Positions 31,748 to 41,235 of a DNA stretch of 64,000 bases are shown one piece after another. The position numbers were made by a program, and so were the translations under genes. The DNA comes from Halovenus carboxidivorans. GTDB lineage: Archaea > Halobacteriota > Halobacteria > Halobacteriales > Haloarculaceae. Location: assembly GCF_009831575.1 (NCBI RefSeq), contig NZ_WUUT01000005.1, positions 62,001 to 126,000 on the forward strand, written 5' to 3'. The notes under the pieces are model-generated. The model searched no databases and was not told the DNA's origin. It worked only from the letters and a program-made list of their open reading frames with translations. Each line of letters begins with the position of its first letter. Position 1 is the first letter of the stretch.

Positions 31748-33466
31748 CTACAGAACGGTCCCGTGTTTCTTGTCGGGCAGGTCCTTGTCGACGTCCTCGT
31801 AGAACGCGAATCGGTTGGTCAGTTCGGTTCGGAGCGTGCTCGGCGGGACAATCTCGTCGATGACAACCTCGCTGGCCATCCGGTGTACGTCGATGTCCTC
31901 GCGGTACTCCTCGCGGAGTTGTTGCTCTTTCCGCTCGCGCTCGTCGGGATCGTCGATCTCTGCGAGTTTGTTCGCGTACACCGCGTTGATCGCCGCCTCC
32001 GGTCCCATGATGGCTATCTCGCCGGAGGGCAGCGCAATCGTCGACTCGGGCTGGTAGGCGGGGCCTGCCATCGCGTAGACACCCGCGCCGTAGGCCTTCC
32101 GGACGATCACGGACTGGATCGGAACTGTCGCAGAGGAGGTGGCGTAGATCATCCGTTTGCCCTGTTCGAGAATGCCCTCCTTCTCGACGGCGGAGCCAGC
32201 CATGAACCCGGGCGTGTCACAGAGATACAACAGCGGGACGTTGTAGGCGTCACAGGTCCAGATGAACTGCGCGGCCTTCTCGGCCGCGTCGGGGAAGATC
32301 GCACCCGCACGGTTGGCCGGCTGATTGGCGACGATCCCGACCGGTCGGCCGTCGATCCGCGCGAACGCGGTGATGATCTCGCTGCCGTACTCCGGCCGGA
32401 GTTCGAGCACCGAGTCGGCGTCGACGACTCGCTCGATCACGTCGCGCATGTCGTAGCCCTTGTTCGGGGACTGCGGAACGACCGAGTCGATTCCGTCCGG
32501 GGACTTCGCCGGCCCGACGGGGTCGCTCCGGGGTGGCGCGTGGTCGCTGTTCCGAGGCAGATAGCTCAGCAACTGCGCGACCAGTTCCCGAGCGTGCTCC
32601 TCGTCCTCGGCGATCAGGTCGGCGCTTCCCGAGACGCTGGTGTGCATCTCCGCCCCGCCTAGCTCCTGCATATCGATCTCCTCGCCGGTGACCATCTCCA
32701 CCATCCGCGGGGAGGCGATCGCCATCGCGCTCACGTCCCGCACCATGATCGTGAAGTCGGCGAAAATCGGCGTGTAGGCGGCCCCGGCGATACAGGGGCC
32801 GTAGAGGACACAGATCTGCGGGACTCGACCGGAGAGCATCGAGTGGTTGTAGTAGTACTTGCCGATCCCCTCGCGGTTGGCGAAAAAGCCGGTCTGCTGG
32901 TCGATTCGCCCGCCGGAGGAGTCCATCAGATACAGCACCGGACGGCCGGTCTTGAGCGCGCGGTGTTGCATCCGGAGAAACTTCTCGACGCCTTTCTCGG
33001 CCATCGAGCCGGCTTTGACCGAGAAGTCGTTGGCCATGAAGTGAACGTCCCGCCCCTCGAACTCCGCCGCGCCGGTGATCAGGCCGTCCGCGGGCAGTCG
33101 CTCCTCGGCGTCGAACTCCGCGAACTTGCCGTCCTCGAAGGCGAGTCCGTCTTCCCCGAACCACAGGTCCAGACGGTCTCGGACGAACAGTTTACCCTGC
33201 TCTTCGAGCCGTTTTCGGTACTTCTCCGGACCGCCCCGTTCGATGTCTTCGATCTCCTTCCACAGGTTCCGCTCGCGGTCGGTCGGGCCGAGGTCGTCGG
33301 TCTCGGGGGCGCTGGCCCCGTTCGTGCTCGCCCGTTCGACGGTCGCCAGCGGAGTGTCCCCGCCGCGGGCGTACACCTCGATGTCGTCTTCGAGGTGCTG
33401 TGCGAGCGCCTTTGCGATGATCTGTGCGTCCTGCTCGGTCGTCTCCGGCTGTACGCGTATCTTCAT
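31748..33466 (-). CDS. Acyl-CoA carboxylase beta (carboxyltransferase) subunit
   Basis: Carboxyltransferase subunit of propionyl-CoA/acetyl-CoA/3-methylcrotonyl-CoA-type biotin carboxylases, 572 residues. The crotonase-type pair of domains is clear: FMANDFSVKAGSMAEKGVEKF, then SGGRIDQQTGFFANREG in the first half, and NQPANRAGAIFPDAAEKAAQF, DTPGFMAGSAVEKEG in the second. An N-terminal extension of about 60 residues (MKIRVQPETTEQDAQIIAKA...) precedes the usual start and looks like a short epsilon-type or partner segment. Start ATG 33466 overlaps the upstream gene stop by one base (TGATG). No biotin carboxylase or biotin carrier gene is in the window. Confidence 0.93.
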   Translation of the reverse strand: MKIRVQPETTEQDAQIIAKALAQHLEDDIEVYARGGDTPLATVERASTNGASAPETDDLGPTDRERNLWKEIEDIERGGPEKYRKRLEEQGKLFVRDRLDLWFGEDGLAFEDGKFAEFDAEERLPADGLITGAAEFEGRDVHFMANDFSVKAGSMAEKGVEKFLRMQHRALKTGRPVLYLMDSSGGRIDQQTGFFANREGIGKYYYNHSMLSGRVPQICVLYGPCIAGAAYTPIFADFTIMVRDVSAMAIASPRMVEMVTGEEIDMQELGGAEMHTSVSGSADLIAEDEEHARELVAQLLSYLPRNSDHAPPRSDPVGPAKSPDGIDSVVPQSPNKGYDMRDVIERVVDADSVLELRPEYGSEIITAFARIDGRPVGIVANQPANRAGAIFPDAAEKAAQFIWTCDAYNVPLLYLCDTPGFMAGSAVEKEGILEQGKRMIYATSSATVPIQSVIVRKAYGAGVYAMAGPAYQPESTIALPSGEIAIMGPEAAINAVYANKLAEIDDPDERERKEQQLREEYREDIDVHRMASEVVIDEIVPPSTLRTELTNRFAFYEDVDKDLPDKKHGTVL

Positions 33467-34632
33467 CAGTAGGACTTGGGGAAGCCGATCTGCTGGCTGA
33501 TGTGGTTGTACGCCATCTGCTGGGTCACGGGGGCGAGGCGGGTGAGGTTGATCTCGCGCCACCACCGCTCGACATCGTACTCCTTTGCGTAGCCCCACCC
33601 GCCGAAGGCCTGCATCGACTGTTTGACCGCCTCGATCCCCGCCTCGACGGCGGTGGCCTTGGCGACGTTGGTCTCGTACGCACAGTCCTCGCCGTTGTCG
33701 AACTTCCAGGCAGCCTTCTCTCGCATCACCGACGCCGTCTCCATGCGCGCGTATGCTTTCGTTATCGGGAACGAGACGCCCTGGTGTTCGCCGACGGGAC
33801 GGCCGAACACCTCGCGGTCGTTCGCGTACTCGATTGCGGCGTCGGCCGCCAGTGTTCCGATTCCGGTTCCCGCGGCGGCGAACCCGATCCGCTCGGGGTT
33901 GATCATGTGGACCAGCGGCTCCCACCCACCATCTTCTTCCCCCAGCAAGTTCTCCTCGGGTACGCGCACGTCGTCGATGAACACCTCACAGGAGTTCGAG
34001 TAGTTGATCCCGTGTTTCTCGATTGGCGAGGTCTCGATACCGGGGTCGTCCATGTCGACGACGAACAGCGAGATGCCGTCGGTCCCGCGCTCGACCTCGG
34101 ATTTCGGCGTCGTGCGGGTGACGAGAATCATGTTGTCAGCGATGTCGGAGAAGGTGATCCACGCCTTCTCGCCGTTGAGGACGAACTCGTCGCCGTCGCG
34201 CTCTGCGTGCGTTGCCACGTTGAGCGTGTTCGTTCCGGCCTCCGGTTCCGTGATTCCGATCGAGAAGTTCCGGTTGCCGGCGGCGATGTCCGGCAGGTAG
34301 CGCTCCCGCTGTTCTGGAGTGCCGTAATCGCGGATGCCGAGCGCCGCCATCCCCCCGGTGAGGACGAGATACCACGTGCCGGCCATCCCGCAGCCCTCGG
34401 CACAGAGCGTCTCCATCGCCACCCCCATCTCCTGCATCCCCATACCGGCACCGTCGTACTCCTCGGGAACGAGCAGCCCGTGGAAGTCGGCCGCCGCGAG
34501 TTCGTCCCAGAAGTCGGCCGCGAACTCCCCTTTCTGCTCTTTCTCTCGCCAGTACTCCGGTCCGTACTCCCCCGCAATCTCGGTCGCAGTCGACTGGATC
34601 AGGCTGTGGGTCTCCTCGGTCGCAAAATCCAT
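33466..34632 (-). CDS. Acyl-CoA dehydrogenase
   Basis: FAD acyl-CoA dehydrogenase, 388 residues. Features: ITEPEAGTNTLNVATHAERDG-type central domain start, LNGEKAWITFSDIAD (FAD-binding), FGGWGYAKEYDVERWWREINL at the C-terminal end, ending with KSY. It is coupled by a one-base TGATG overlap to the carboxylase beta subunit, suggesting a shared pathway such as branched-chain acyl-CoA or methylcrotonyl-CoA breakdown. ATG 34632 begins MDFATEETHSL; a longer upstream start is not supported. Confidence 0.93.
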   Translation of the reverse strand: MDFATEETHSLIQSTATEIAGEYGPEYWREKEQKGEFAADFWDELAAADFHGLLVPEEYDGAGMGMQEMGVAMETLCAEGCGMAGTWYLVLTGGMAALGIRDYGTPEQRERYLPDIAAGNRNFSIGITEPEAGTNTLNVATHAERDGDEFVLNGEKAWITFSDIADNMILVTRTTPKSEVERGTDGISLFVVDMDDPGIETSPIEKHGINYSNSCEVFIDDVRVPEENLLGEEDGGWEPLVHMINPERIGFAAAGTGIGTLAADAAIEYANDREVFGRPVGEHQGVSFPITKAYARMETASVMREKAAWKFDNGEDCAYETNVAKATAVEAGIEAVKQSMQAFGGWGYAKEYDVERWWREINLTRLAPVTQQMAYNHISQQIGFPKSY

Positions 34633-34729
34633 ACGTAGTGGTATGTGAGTCCGTCTCTTAGTAGTTGGTGTCAACGGGTGAACTGTCGAGCCGATATCCT
34701 CAAACGCCTGGGCGTCCTCCGTCGATACG

Positions 34730-35359
34730 ATGATGCTTCCGGTCCATGCCCTCGTCGGCATGGTACTCATGATCCCCGTCGGCGCCGTCGCGCCGGAGTT
34801 CGCCGGTGTTGCGCTCTGGGGCGGACTGGTCGGCGGGGTGGTCCCCGACCTCGATATGGTCGTTGCACACCGGAAAACGCTCCATTTCCCGACCTACTAC
34901 TCCGTGCTGGCCGGCGGATCGGTCGTCCTTGCCCTCCTCGTTCCGACGGCGCTGACGGTAGCCGCGATGGCGGCCCTCGTCGGCGCGGCCGTCCACAGCG
35001 TCATGGATATCCTCGGCGGAGGGCTCTCACTTCGGCCGTGGGAAGCCACGTCCGACCGCGCCGTCTACGATCACTACCGCCAGCACTGGTACGCACCCAA
35101 GCGGTGGGTGCGCTACGACGGCTCCCCCGAAGGACTGGTGCTGACGCTGCTGCTCGGCGCGGTGCTGTGGACAGTCGTCGACGGAGCGTTGCGGTGGCCC
35201 GTCGTCGCGTCTGTCGTCGTCGCCGTCGTCTACACCGCCGTCCGGCGGCGCCTCCCCACGCTCGGCCAGCAGGTCGTCCAGCGAGTGCTCGAACCGCTCC
35301 TGCCGAATCGGTTGCTCCGGTATCTGCCTGCGCATTTATTGTCCGACCGGGACACCTAA
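34730..35359 (+). CDS. Membrane-bound metal-dependent hydrolase-like protein (YdjM/DUF457 type)
   Basis: A 209-residue membrane protein with conserved histidines and aspartates at helix ends: PVHALVG at the start, GGVVPDLDMVVAHRKTLHFP in the first third, and GAAVHSVMDILGGG near residue 90. This arrangement matches the LexA-binding, inner membrane-associated YdjM/DUF457 proteins. The catalytic nature is by family resemblance only. Followed after 5 bases by the next gene. Confidence 0.7.
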   Translation: MMLPVHALVGMVLMIPVGAVAPEFAGVALWGGLVGGVVPDLDMVVAHRKTLHFPTYYSVLAGGSVVLALLVPTALTVAAMAALVGAAVHSVMDILGGGLSLRPWEATSDRAVYDHYRQHWYAPKRWVRYDGSPEGLVLTLLLGAVLWTVVDGALRWPVVASVVVAVVYTAVRRRLPTLGQQVVQRVLEPLLPNRLLRYLPAHLLSDRDT

Positions 35360-36453: not shown

Positions 36454-36460
36454 CTTTATG
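36454..36460 (+). promoter_or_regulatory. TATA box for the biotin operon
   Basis: CTTTATG centred 28 bases upstream of the GTG at 36485, consistent with a leaderless transcript beginning at bioB. An ATG inside this element (36458) is in frame but would make the TATA box coding, so it is rejected as the start. Confidence 0.6.
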
Positions 36461-36484
36461 ATGTTGTCAACCGCTACTGTGGAC

Positions 36485-37594
36485 GTGGTTTACGAGACGG
36501 GGAACCAGACAATCGACGACGCGGTCCGGCGAGTGCTCGACGGCGAGCAGCTCGACCGGACCGATGGACTGGCGCTGTACGCACAGCCAGTCGAGGAACT
36601 CGCCGCCGGCGCGGATCTCGTCCGCCAGCAGTTTTCCGACGGGACCGTCGACGCCTGTAGTATCGTCAACGCCAAAGCCGGCAACTGCGCGGAGGACTGC
36701 GGGTTCTGTGCACAGTCAGTTCATTTCGACACCGGTATCGACACCTACGACTTTCTCGGCCCGGAGAAGGTCCTCGATGCCGCGAAACGAGCGGAGGCAG
36801 ACGGTGCCCAGCGGTTCGGCATCGTCGTCGCCGAGAAGGGCGTTTCCAAGGAGAACCGCCCGGAGGAGTGGGCGGAGATCTGTGAGTCGATCCGACTCAT
36901 CCGCGACGAGACCGACGTCGAGGCCGACGCCTCGCTCGGTCTGCTCACCGAGGAGGAGGCAGAGGAACTCGCAGACATCGGCCTCAACCACTACAACCAC
37001 AACATCGAGACCTCCCGGCGCTACTTCGACGAAATCGTCAACACCCACGACTTCGAGGACCGACTGGTGACGCTCCGTCGGGCGAAGGCCGCCGGGATGG
37101 ATCTCTGTGCCGGCGTCATTCTCGGCATGGGCGAGTCACCGACTGATCGGATCGACGCCGCCGTCGAGTTGCAGGACATCGGCGTCTCCTCGCTGCCGGT
37201 GAACATCCTGAACCCGGTGGCCGGGACGCCGCTGGGCGACCAGGACCACGCCGACATCACCAGATCCGAGATCATGAAGACGATCGCCGTCTACCGGTTC
37301 CTCCACCCCGACGTGCGGGTGCGACTGACCGGTGGGCGGGAGGCGAACCTCGCGCCAGAGGACCAACACCTGCCCTTCGAGGCGGGTGCCGACGGGCTGT
37401 TGACCGGCGATTACCTGACCACGGAGGGCCAGGACCCCGGCGACGACATCGAGATCATTCAGCGGGCGGGACTCGAACCGAACCGCTCGTCGAACTCGTT
37501 CGATCCGAAGGCGGTGAAGGACCGACACCGTGAACCGAACCCCGGCAAGGCCGCGGGAACGGCCACGAGCAACGCGACAAACATCGACGACTGA
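36485..37594 (+). CDS. bioB: Biotin synthase
   Basis: Radical SAM enzyme that inserts sulfur into dethiobiotin. The cluster motif is NCAEDCGFCAQS (CxxxCxxC), followed by NHYNHNIETSRRYF and GVILGMGE, typical of BioB. Start codon is likely GTG 36485 (giving MVYETGNQ); GTG 36479 adds two residues and ATG 36458 nine. At 369 residues the length agrees with haloarchaeal forms. First gene of the operon bioB-bioU-bioF-bioD. Confidence 0.95.
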   Translation: MVYETGNQTIDDAVRRVLDGEQLDRTDGLALYAQPVEELAAGADLVRQQFSDGTVDACSIVNAKAGNCAEDCGFCAQSVHFDTGIDTYDFLGPEKVLDAAKRAEADGAQRFGIVVAEKGVSKENRPEEWAEICESIRLIRDETDVEADASLGLLTEEEAEELADIGLNHYNHNIETSRRYFDEIVNTHDFEDRLVTLRRAKAAGMDLCAGVILGMGESPTDRIDAAVELQDIGVSSLPVNILNPVAGTPLGDQDHADITRSEIMKTIAVYRFLHPDVRVRLTGGREANLAPEDQHLPFEAGADGLLTGDYLTTEGQDPGDDIEIIQRAGLEPNRSSNSFDPKAVKDRHREPNPGKAAGTATSNATNIDD

Positions 37595-37596
37595 CA

Positions 37597-38625
37597 ATGG
37601 ACGACATACACTTTGCGGTACTTGGCACCGGAGGTATCGGCCGACGCGCAATCGAATACTCGAGCTCGAAAGACCACCTCGTTCCAGTCGCGGCCTGCGA
37701 CCGCGACGGCGTGGCCATCGATCACGAGGGTCTCGACGGAGACGAACTGCTCGCGGCGACGGAGGGCAACATCGCCTCCGACGGCGGCGCGACCGCAGTC
37801 AAACAGACCGGCGAACAGCAGGGCGTCGTCGCCTCGGCACAGGCTACACCGACGGAGACGCCCATCGACGACATCATCGCCGAGTCAGACGCCATCGACG
37901 CCGTGTTGATCGCACTGCCGAATCTCGAACACGATTTCATCCCGCGGGTCGCCGAGCGATTTGCCGAGGCCGACTACGAGGGGGTTCTCGTCGACGTCCT
38001 CAAACGATCACGTGTGATCGGGATGCTCGACGACCGGGCGGAGATGCTCGAAGACAGCGGCATCACCTTCATCTGTGGCGCGGGCGCGACGCCCGGGTTC
38101 CTCACGGGAGCGGCCGCGCTGGCCGCACAGTCCTTCGTCGAAATCGAGGAGGTCGAGATCTGGTGGGGCGTCGGACTCAAGTCCGGCTACGAGGACAACC
38201 GCGGCACCGTCCGGGAAGACATCGCTCACCTCGACGGCTACGACATCGAGACGGCCAGAGATCTCACCGACGAGGAGATCGAAGCGATCGTCGACGACCA
38301 CGACGGCGTCATCGAGTTCAACGACATGGAACACGCTGACGACGTCCTCCTCGAACGCGCCGGGATCTGTGACGCCGAGGACGTGACCGTCGGCGGAATC
38401 CTCGACGTGCGCTCCGACGAGAAGCCGACGACGACGACCGTCCGGGTCACGGGTCGGACCTTCGATGGCGAACGCGGGACCAACACTTTCGAACTCGACG
38501 ACGCGACGAGTATGGAGGCGAACGTCAACGGTCCGGCGCTGGGCTATCTGAAAACCGGCGTCCGGCGGAACCGCGCCGGCGAGTACGGCGTCTTCGGGCC
38601 GGCGGAGCTGATGCCCGGCTTCTGA
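37597..38625 (+). CDS. Putative BioU-type (S)-8-amino-7-oxononanoate synthase / DAPA-forming reductase
   Basis: A 342-residue NAD(P)-binding protein between bioB and bioF. The nucleotide motif LGTGGIGRRAIE is at 9-20, with a Rossmann-like N domain and a C-terminal domain containing WWGVGLKSGYEDN. Lys136 in VLVDVLKRSRVIGML occupies a position like that of the sacrificial lysine of cyanobacterial BioU. The operon has no bioA, so conversion of KAPA to DAPA needs another enzyme. BioU is known to do this as a suicide enzyme; homology is inferred from fold and context, from memory, and is not proven. Confidence 0.7.
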   Translation: MDDIHFAVLGTGGIGRRAIEYSSSKDHLVPVAACDRDGVAIDHEGLDGDELLAATEGNIASDGGATAVKQTGEQQGVVASAQATPTETPIDDIIAESDAIDAVLIALPNLEHDFIPRVAERFAEADYEGVLVDVLKRSRVIGMLDDRAEMLEDSGITFICGAGATPGFLTGAAALAAQSFVEIEEVEIWWGVGLKSGYEDNRGTVREDIAHLDGYDIETARDLTDEEIEAIVDDHDGVIEFNDMEHADDVLLERAGICDAEDVTVGGILDVRSDEKPTTTTVRVTGRTFDGERGTNTFELDDATSMEANVNGPALGYLKTGVRRNRAGEYGVFGPAELMPGF

Positions 38626-38626
38626 G

Positions 38627-39826
38627 ATGTCGCTACAAACCGGGTTCGGATTCGGGCTCGACGAGCGGCTTCAGCAACGGGAAGCCGACGGGCTACGGCG
38701 GGATCTCACGCCAGTCGATTCCGTCGCCGCCACCAGCCGCGTCGCCGCCGATCCTGGCGGCGACGAACCGGCCTTCGGCGACCGACGGACGATTTTCGCC
38801 GCGAACAACTACCTCGGACTGGCCGGAGACGAACAGGTGATCCGAGCCGCCGCCGAGACGGCCCGAGAGATCGGAACGGGTGCGGGCGCGTCGCGTCTCG
38901 TCGTCGGCGACACGCCCGCGCATCGGTCCCTGGAGCGTGCGCTGGCCGAGCGGAAAGGCTCCGAGCGTGCGCTGGTCTTCTCCTCGGGTTACGCCGCGAA
39001 CGTCGGAACGCTGACCGCGCTCGATCCGGACGTGATCTTCTCGGACGAACTGAACCACGCGAGCATCATCGACGGGGCACGGCTCTCCGCGGCCGATGTC
39101 GAGGTGTACGACCACTGCGACGCGAGCGCGCTCGCCGACGCGATGGCCGAGCGAGCAGTGACTGCCGCGCCCGGGGAGTCCTGGCTGGTCGTCACCGACT
39201 CCGTGTTCTCGATGGACGGCGACGTGGCTCCCCTGGCCGAAATCTGTGAAGTTGCCGAGGAGTACGGAGCGTGGGTGATGGCGGACGAGGCCCACGCGAC
39301 AGGCGTCTACGACGGGGGCATCGTCGGTGAGCGAGGGCTCGAAGATCGGATCGACGTGCAACTCGGGACCCTCTCGAAGGCGCTGGGCGCGCAGGGGGGG
39401 TTCATCGCGGGCGACGAGACGCTGATCGAGTGGGTGCTCAACGCCGCCCGCTCGTTCGTCTTCTCGACGGGACTCGCCCCGCCCGCCGCGGCAGCGGCCG
39501 AGTGCGCGCTCGAACGCGCACCTGCACAGCGTGACGATCTGTGGGCCAACGTCGAACTGCTCCGGGACGGACTGGAATCGATGGGTTACGAGGTCTACGG
39601 GGAGACACACATCCTCCCGGTACTGGTCGGGACGCGCGAGGACGCCGTCGCGCTGGACGACCGGCTTCGAGAGGCGGGTATCGTCGCCCCGGCGATCCGA
39701 CCCCCGACCGTTCCGGAGGGGACGAGTCGGATCCGGGTCGCGCCGCAGGCGACACACACCCACCGGGAGATCGAACGCTGTCTGGCGGCCTTCGAGGCCG
39801 CCGGCGAGGAGGTCGGTCTGCTGTGA
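38627..39826 (+). CDS. bioF: 8-amino-7-oxononanoate synthase
   Basis: PLP enzyme that condenses pimeloyl-thioester with alanine to KAPA. The 399-residue protein has FAANNYLGLAGD at the N-terminal side, GAGASRLVVGDT, and DEAHATGVYDGG; the Schiff-base lysine is in LGTLSKALGAQGGFIAG. One base separates its ATG from the bioU-like stop. The GTGA overlap at its end starts bioD. Confidence 0.95.
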   Translation: MSLQTGFGFGLDERLQQREADGLRRDLTPVDSVAATSRVAADPGGDEPAFGDRRTIFAANNYLGLAGDEQVIRAAAETAREIGTGAGASRLVVGDTPAHRSLERALAERKGSERALVFSSGYAANVGTLTALDPDVIFSDELNHASIIDGARLSAADVEVYDHCDASALADAMAERAVTAAPGESWLVVTDSVFSMDGDVAPLAEICEVAEEYGAWVMADEAHATGVYDGGIVGERGLEDRIDVQLGTLSKALGAQGGFIAGDETLIEWVLNAARSFVFSTGLAPPAAAAAECALERAPAQRDDLWANVELLRDGLESMGYEVYGETHILPVLVGTREDAVALDDRLREAGIVAPAIRPPTVPEGTSRIRVAPQATHTHREIERCLAAFEAAGEEVGLL

Positions 39827-40485
39827 GTCTCGCCGTCGTCGGCACGGACACCGGCATCGGGAAAACTGTCGTCACGGCCGGACTCGTCTCGTCGTTCCGG
39901 GAGTCGGGATACGACGCCCGGGCGATCAAGCCCGCCCAGACGGCCTTTCCCGAGGACGACGACGCGGCCTACGTCGCGGCGGCCTGCGGCGAGGAGTCGG
40001 CGGCGGTCCGGCTCCGATCCAGACCGGAACCGCTCGCTCCCGCGGTCGCCGCCCGGCGGGCCGACGACCCGATCAGCTACGAGTCACTGCTCGCGGACAC
40101 GCGGGAAGCACTGGCCGAAAGCGAGGTCGGGATCGTCGAGGGCGCGGGCGGGCTTCGCGTTCCGCTGTCAAACGAGCCCCGCCGCGAGATTGTCGATCTG
40201 GTAGCCGACCTCTCGGTCTCGGCGGTGGTCGTGGCCCGCTCCGGGCTCGGAACGCTGAATCACACCGCCCTGACTGTCGAGGCACTCCGGAGGCGAGACG
40301 TTCCGGTCGAGGGGGTCGTGTTGAATCAGTACGACGGCGAGACCGTCGCGGAGCGGACGAACCCGGACGAACTCGAACGGATGTGTTCGTGTCCGGTCTG
40401 GACGGTGCCGACAGTCGAACTGGAAGTGCCGAGGGACGCGACGGCTCTCACCGAGCACCTCCCCGAGCCGTCGGCGTTGCGCTGA
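39823..40485 (+). CDS. bioD: Dethiobiotin synthetase
   Basis: ATP-dependent carboxylase that closes the ureido ring of dethiobiotin from DAPA. Signature VVGTDTGIGKTVVTAGL (P-loop) near the N terminus, KPAQT, and EGAGGLRVPLS. 220 residues, family length. It starts with GTG 39823, overlapping the bioF stop by four bases (GTGA), and ends the operon. Confidence 0.94.
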   Translation: MSLAVVGTDTGIGKTVVTAGLVSSFRESGYDARAIKPAQTAFPEDDDAAYVAAACGEESAAVRLRSRPEPLAPAVAARRADDPISYESLLADTREALAESEVGIVEGAGGLRVPLSNEPRREIVDLVADLSVSAVVVARSGLGTLNHTALTVEALRRRDVPVEGVVLNQYDGETVAERTNPDELERMCSCPVWTVPTVELEVPRDATALTEHLPEPSALR

Positions 40486-40527: not shown

Positions 40528-41235
40528 ATGGCTCGGGAGGATCGGAACAGACTCGCCGAGAAGATGGCGGGTGAGATCACGCTGAGCGACGATCCGGGGG
40601 CGACACTGCGGAAGTGGCGTACCGATTTCGAGGTCGCACAGACCGATCTGGCCGACGAACTCGGTGTCTCCCCGTCGGTCGTCTCGGACTACGAGAGCGG
40701 CCGCCGGGACAATCCGGGGATCGGGATCGTTCGTCGGGCGGTGCAAGCCCTCCTGGAGATCGACGAACGCAGCGGCGGCCGACACATCCGCCAGTTCGCA
40801 CGCGTCCTCTCCGCCGGGTTCGACAGCGCCGTCGTCCACGACCTCAGAGAGTATCCGGCGAACATCCCGCTGGATCGGTACTACGAGGCCATCGGGGCGA
40901 CCGAGCTAGTACGGGGGAGCCGCGACACCATCGCGGGACACACGATCATCGACAGCATCGAGGCGATTCGCAGACTCTCCAGTGACGAGTTCTACAATCT
41001 CTACGGGCAGAGCACGAATCGCGCGCTGGTCTTTACGAACGTCACGCGCGGCGAATCCCCACTCGTGGCTCTGCGAGTCGTCAAGCCGACGCCGCACGCG
41101 GTCGTCTTACACGGTCTCGAAGAGAGCGACGTGTGGGAGCACGCGGCCGACCTGGCCCGCGTCGACGGGTTCTCACTCGCCGTCACGAATCTCGATTTAG
41201 AAACGATGCTCGAACGCCACCAGGATCTGCCCTGA
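40528..41235 (+). CDS. XRE-family transcriptional regulator
   Basis: A 235-residue regulator. A Cro/C1-type HTH is at about 25-80 (LRKWRTDFEVAQTDLADELG, SPSVVSDYESGRRDNPG). The C-terminal 150 residues form a separate domain (LVRGSRDTIAGHTIIDSIEAI, VFTNVTRGESPLVALRV) of unknown ligand. It follows bioD by 42 bases with its own promoter; a link to biotin control is only positional. Ends at the terminator region 41236-41361. Confidence 0.85.
   Translation: MAREDRNRLAEKMAGEITLSDDPGATLRKWRTDFEVAQTDLADELGVSPSVVSDYESGRRDNPGIGIVRRAVQALLEIDERSGGRHIRQFARVLSAGFDSAVVHDLREYPANIPLDRYYEAIGATELVRGSRDTIAGHTIIDSIEAIRRLSSDEFYNLYGQSTNRALVFTNVTRGESPLVALRVVKPTPHAVVLHGLEESDVWEHAADLARVDGFSLAVTNLDLETMLERHQDLP

Follow-up and report, generated by a model that had tools for sequence, protein, structure and literature searches.

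BioA, a SAM- or lysine-dependent diaminononanoate (DAPA) aminotransferase, and BioU fill the same step of biotin synthesis, the conversion of 8-amino-7-oxononanoate (KAPA, also AON), although BioA is an unrelated PLP enzyme. In BioU of Synechocystis sp. PCC 6803 (Slr0355), a lysine of the protein reportedly forms an imine with KAPA, which is reduced by NAD(P)H before the bound DAPA is carboxylated. Oxidation by NAD(P)+ is then said to free DAPA carbamate and to leave allysine behind, the enzyme serving for one round. Synechocystis BioU is accordingly described as a suicide enzyme (PMC7133116, summarising Sakaki et al. 2020).

The window analyzed here, a stretch of 64,000 nucleotides from the haloarchaeon Halovenus carboxidivorans, encodes a protein with full-length homology to Slr0355 (45% identity, 1.5 Å fold), with which it shares the reactive Lys, the His, the NAD(P) glycine motif and the missing bioA step. 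Relative to Slr0355, the haloarchaeal protein has an insertion of ~16 residues around positions 50-66, most of it modelled with low confidence. Its gene lies in a bioB-bioU-bioF-bioD operon, whereas no bioB, bioF or bioD was found within a flank of up to 5 kb at the best 80 cyanobacterial loci. The gene very probably encodes a haloarchaeal BioU that converts KAPA to DAPA carbamate at the cost of Lys136.

Organization of the biotin operon

The bioU reading frame is open over its full length (342 aa) and stands second among four closely packed genes on the + strand, in the order bioB-bioU-bioF-bioD (Table 1). A 2-bp gap separates bioB from bioU and a 1-bp gap bioU from bioF, while the GTG start of bioD overlaps the bioF stop by 4 bp (GTGA); this spacing is operon-like. 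No bioA lies within the operon. The gene content given by an earlier note on this DNA, namely BioB, BioF and BioD with a reductase-like protein and without BioA, agrees with both the family profiles and the spacing.

Table 1. Features of the biotin operon and its upstream region in the window.
Feature	Position	Strand	Basis
TATA-like element TTAT, putative operon promoter	36456..36459	+	conserved 88-100% per position, 140 haloarchaeal bioB loci
Putative BirA-type operator TTGTCAACC-N14-GGTTTACGA	36464..36495	+	between TATA-like element and bioB start
bioB, biotin synthase	36485..37594	+	TIGR00433 345.5 bits, cut-off 225
bioU, (S)-8-amino-7-oxononanoate carboxylating dehydrogenase, Slr0355 orthologue	37597..38625	+	phmmer, NF047886, model superposition
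Lys136 codon, counterpart of sacrificial Lys124 (Slr0355)	38002..38004	+	aligned with K124A Ala; K 226/226
His246 codon, counterpart of His233 (Slr0355)	38332..38334	+	aligned with H233A chain 6k38; H 226/226
bioF, 8-amino-7-oxononanoate synthase	38627..39826	+	best family TIGR00858 390.7 bits, just below the family cut-off of 426, and context
bioD, dethiobiotin synthase	39823..40485	+	TIGR00347 113.5 bits, cut-off 83

Directly downstream of bioD, on the same strand, lies a gene for an HTH-domain protein (40528-41235, +). It was rejected as a conserved operon member, since no counterpart was found next to bioU in any other genome of the survey. The - strand encodes, a few kb away from the operon, a carboxyltransferase like those of biotin-dependent acyl-CoA carboxylases (31748-33925) and an acyl-CoA dehydrogenase (33466-34770).

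Family membership and fold

In a phmmer search, residues 5-342 of the window protein matched the PDB chains of Slr0355 with an E-value of ~1e-81 and 44-45% identity, and the only further PDB sequence match was a superoxide dismutase (E 0.096). The best family was NF047886, the NCBIfam model of BioU, at ~332 bits (331.7), well below the curated cut-off of 600 bits, which no haloarchaeal copy among 391 haloarchaeal genomes reached. An AlphaFold model (pLDDT 87.5, pTM 0.86, from a 55-sequence alignment) superposed onto 6itd with a Z of 45.4 and 1.5 Å over 324 residues, and fitted all five BioU (Slr0355) structures (PDB 6ir4, 6itd, 6k36, 6k37 and 6k38) with a Z of 45 and 1.5-1.6 Å. It is near certain that the protein is an orthologue of Slr0355 and a member of the BioU family. 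The earlier note, which had put it forward as a candidate BioU, was right in substance.

An unrelated NAD(P)-dependent reductase of the saccharopine, diaminopimelate or amine dehydrogenase type, standing in the operon by chance, would have a common general fold to speak for it. The next-best folds were carboxyspermidine, amine and lysine dehydrogenases (reaching Z 19-21; amine dehydrogenases 18-20), with saccharopine and diaminopimelate reductases at a Z of about 17. Against such a reductase stand the Z of 45 and the 44-45% identity to BioU, the lack of any sequence match to the saccharopine, diaminopimelate or amine dehydrogenase families in the PDB, NCBIfam and Pfam searches, the nearly fixed operon position and the co-occurrence with bioD. 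A better fit to such reductases would have spoken against the earlier note's candidate; saccharopine- and diaminopimelate-type reductases fit far worse (Z about 17 vs 45). We regard the reductase reading as exceedingly improbable, and it is refuted at the level of sequence and structure. Carboxyspermidine dehydrogenase, lysine dehydrogenase and saccharopine reductase share the Rossmann and C-terminal domain fold of the window protein (Z 17-21) but are only 9-18% identical to it and act on other substrates; to our knowledge, no single-turnover lysine is known in this fold family.

Some haloarchaeal bioU copies are plasmid-borne, and complete plasmid copies, e.g. on NZ_CP078064.1, carry the annotation 'transcriptional regulator' or 'hypothetical protein'. 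Were the public records correct, as several of the plasmid entries have it, the protein would be a transcriptional regulator. The Pfam search with the window protein, however, returned a weak Rossmann match alone and no DNA-binding domain. The protein matches, over its full length, an enzyme with solved substrate complexes, and the genome has an HTH-domain BirA at another locus. Contradicted by the lack of a Pfam DNA-binding domain and by the enzyme match, a regulatory function is scarcely credible. The haloarchaeal protein is an archaeal addition to an already known, unusual enzyme family and not another kind of enzyme. An unrooted tree, built with no outgroup, splits haloarchaeal from cyanobacterial BioU cleanly.

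Active-site residues

Lys136 stands in the segment VLVDVLKRSRV, and the earlier note had proposed it as the counterpart of the reactive lysine. Alignment with the K124A structures bears this out, the mutated residue of 6itd and 6k37 (titled K124A) sharing a column with Lys136; likewise, the mutated residue of 6k38 (H233A) shares a column with His246. Conservation was assessed in an alignment of 226 BioU sequences, comprising 146 haloarchaeal loci (the copy from the window's own genome counted among them), 78 cyanobacterial loci, the window protein and Slr0355. Asp133, Lys136, Arg137, Asp208, His211, Glu245 and His246 were invariant in these 226 sequences. G10, G12, G13 and G15 of the N-terminal NAD(P) glycine motif are also invariant. 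The segment DVLKRSR was kept in all 149 readable haloarchaeal copies, and Asp-Ala-[Leu/Ile/Met]-Lys-Arg was found in all of the best 80 cyanobacterial loci, so that no copy without the lysine occurs in either set.

A BioU orthologue might instead carry out the KAPA-to-DAPA step catalytically, with the lysine regenerated or with an outside amine (free lysine, ammonia) as donor, and would then be no suicide enzyme. The sequence contains no proof of single turnover, and the nearest other folds, the carboxyspermidine, amine and lysine dehydrogenases, belong to multi-turnover enzymes. We nevertheless consider a catalytic BioU highly unlikely: Lys136 is invariant in 226/226 aligned sequences, as expected of an amino donor, and the Synechocystis enzyme, which has these residues too, is reported to be a suicide enzyme (PMC7133116, citing Sakaki et al. 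2020).

Absence of bioA and distribution of bioU

The earlier note had left the genome-wide absence of bioA unchecked. Profile searches of the window's own genome (3.25 Mb, 98.3% complete) found one copy of BioU and no bioA above the TIGR00508 cut-off of 405 bits; its three class III aminotransferases scored 218, 131 and 112 bits against the bioA model. These three were rejected as bioA candidates. The first is a LysJ/ArgD-type enzyme adjoining a LysZ/ArgB-type kinase and a deacylase (both neighbors named by reading their sequences), the second an ornithine/aspartate aminotransferase-family protein and the third glutamate-1-semialdehyde aminomutase (HemL). The same search found no bioA above the cut-off in any of the 391 haloarchaeal genomes.

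Among these 391 genomes, bioB was present in 177, bioD in 151 and bioU in 150, and the order bioB-bioU-bioF-bioD was nearly universal. All 150 genomes with bioU also have bioD, and 150 of the 151 with bioD also have bioU. The sole exception (G226) can be explained by an assembly gap, since bioF and bioD are cut at contig ends there. None of the 28 genomes with bioB but without bioU has bioD. BioU takes the place of bioA throughout the haloarchaea surveyed.

Those bioB-positive, bioU-negative genomes that were inspected mostly contain bioB alone, while two have bioB-bioF and one (G181) has BioU fragments. The other five sampled genomes of the window's genus are without BioU, with bioB in two of them. 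These two (G179 and G301) and about 20 others carry bioB without bioU or bioD, and the VVYE start region is kept in most. In these genomes bioB, which often stands alone, perhaps serves dethiobiotin salvage.

In G181, only fragments of 25 and 28 aa of BioU are left between bioB and bioF (locus L187), and no bioD is present in the genome; bioU has decayed here along with loss of the pathway. At two other loci (L191 in G264 and L153 in G247), BioU is fragmented or truncated, with bio genes otherwise present next to it; this could be decay or sequencing error. One genome (G229) has two bioU copies (L108 and L140) on different contigs, each beside bioB, with bioF and bioD near just one of them.

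No BioW was found in the window's genome, although bioF is present. For cyanobacteria, the origin of the pimeloyl unit is described as unknown (PMC12903740).

Promoter and putative operator of the operon

From the TTAT element to the GTG at 36485 the distance is ~27 bp, which suggests a leaderless start at that codon; this GTG is the likely start of bioB, with the ATG at 36461 as an alternative. The box at 36464-36495 resembles the BirA operator (TTGTAAACC-N14/15-GGTTTACAA). Boxes of this type recur at a similar position in 143 of 167 haloarchaeal bioB loci, with 1 background match, and the exact pattern in the window is unique in the 3.25 Mb genome. Since the box overlaps the coding sequence, codon use in bioB was checked. 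The second Val codon was GTT in 140/140 loci, whereas GTT makes up 5.8% of the Val codons elsewhere in bioB, a pattern that shows constraint beyond the protein. In most haloarchaeal loci, a putative BirA-type operator lies over the bioB promoter and start. Genes for a BirA with N-terminal HTH domain and for a BioY transporter are present in the window's genome.

Predicted reaction and biological implications

No biochemistry of any archaeal BioU was found in the papers searched, and the reaction steps and single turnover given here for the haloarchaeal enzyme are carried over from the published work on Slr0355. KAPA would be supplied by BioF, and its ketone would condense with the epsilon-amino group of Lys136 to an imine. 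Reduction of the Lys136-KAPA adduct by NAD(P)H would give BioU-bound DAPA, which CO2 or bicarbonate would carboxylate. Oxidation dependent on NAD(P)+, together with hydrolysis, would then free DAPA carbamate, with allysine replacing Lys136; because of the allysine left at this position, each BioU molecule would work once. BioD would close the ureido ring and BioB would insert the sulfur.

For haloarchaea as a class, we lean toward a picture in which biotin is made only via self-sacrificing BioU, from an operon that BirA switches off at a leaderless archaeal promoter. One protein would be paid per biotin, and a bacterial-type operator would hold the supply down.

The public names 'transcriptional regulator' and 'hypothetical protein' for haloarchaeal bioU are misannotations, corrected here. 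With the haloarchaeal family members, what is probably a single-turnover metabolic enzyme moves from cyanobacteria into archaea, and BioU explains how haloarchaea without bioA can finish biotin synthesis. The conserved BirA-type box suggests a means by which haloarchaea limit the cost of BioU. What a suicide enzyme costs and how it is controlled can be studied in vivo with the genetic systems of Haloferax and other tractable haloarchaea.
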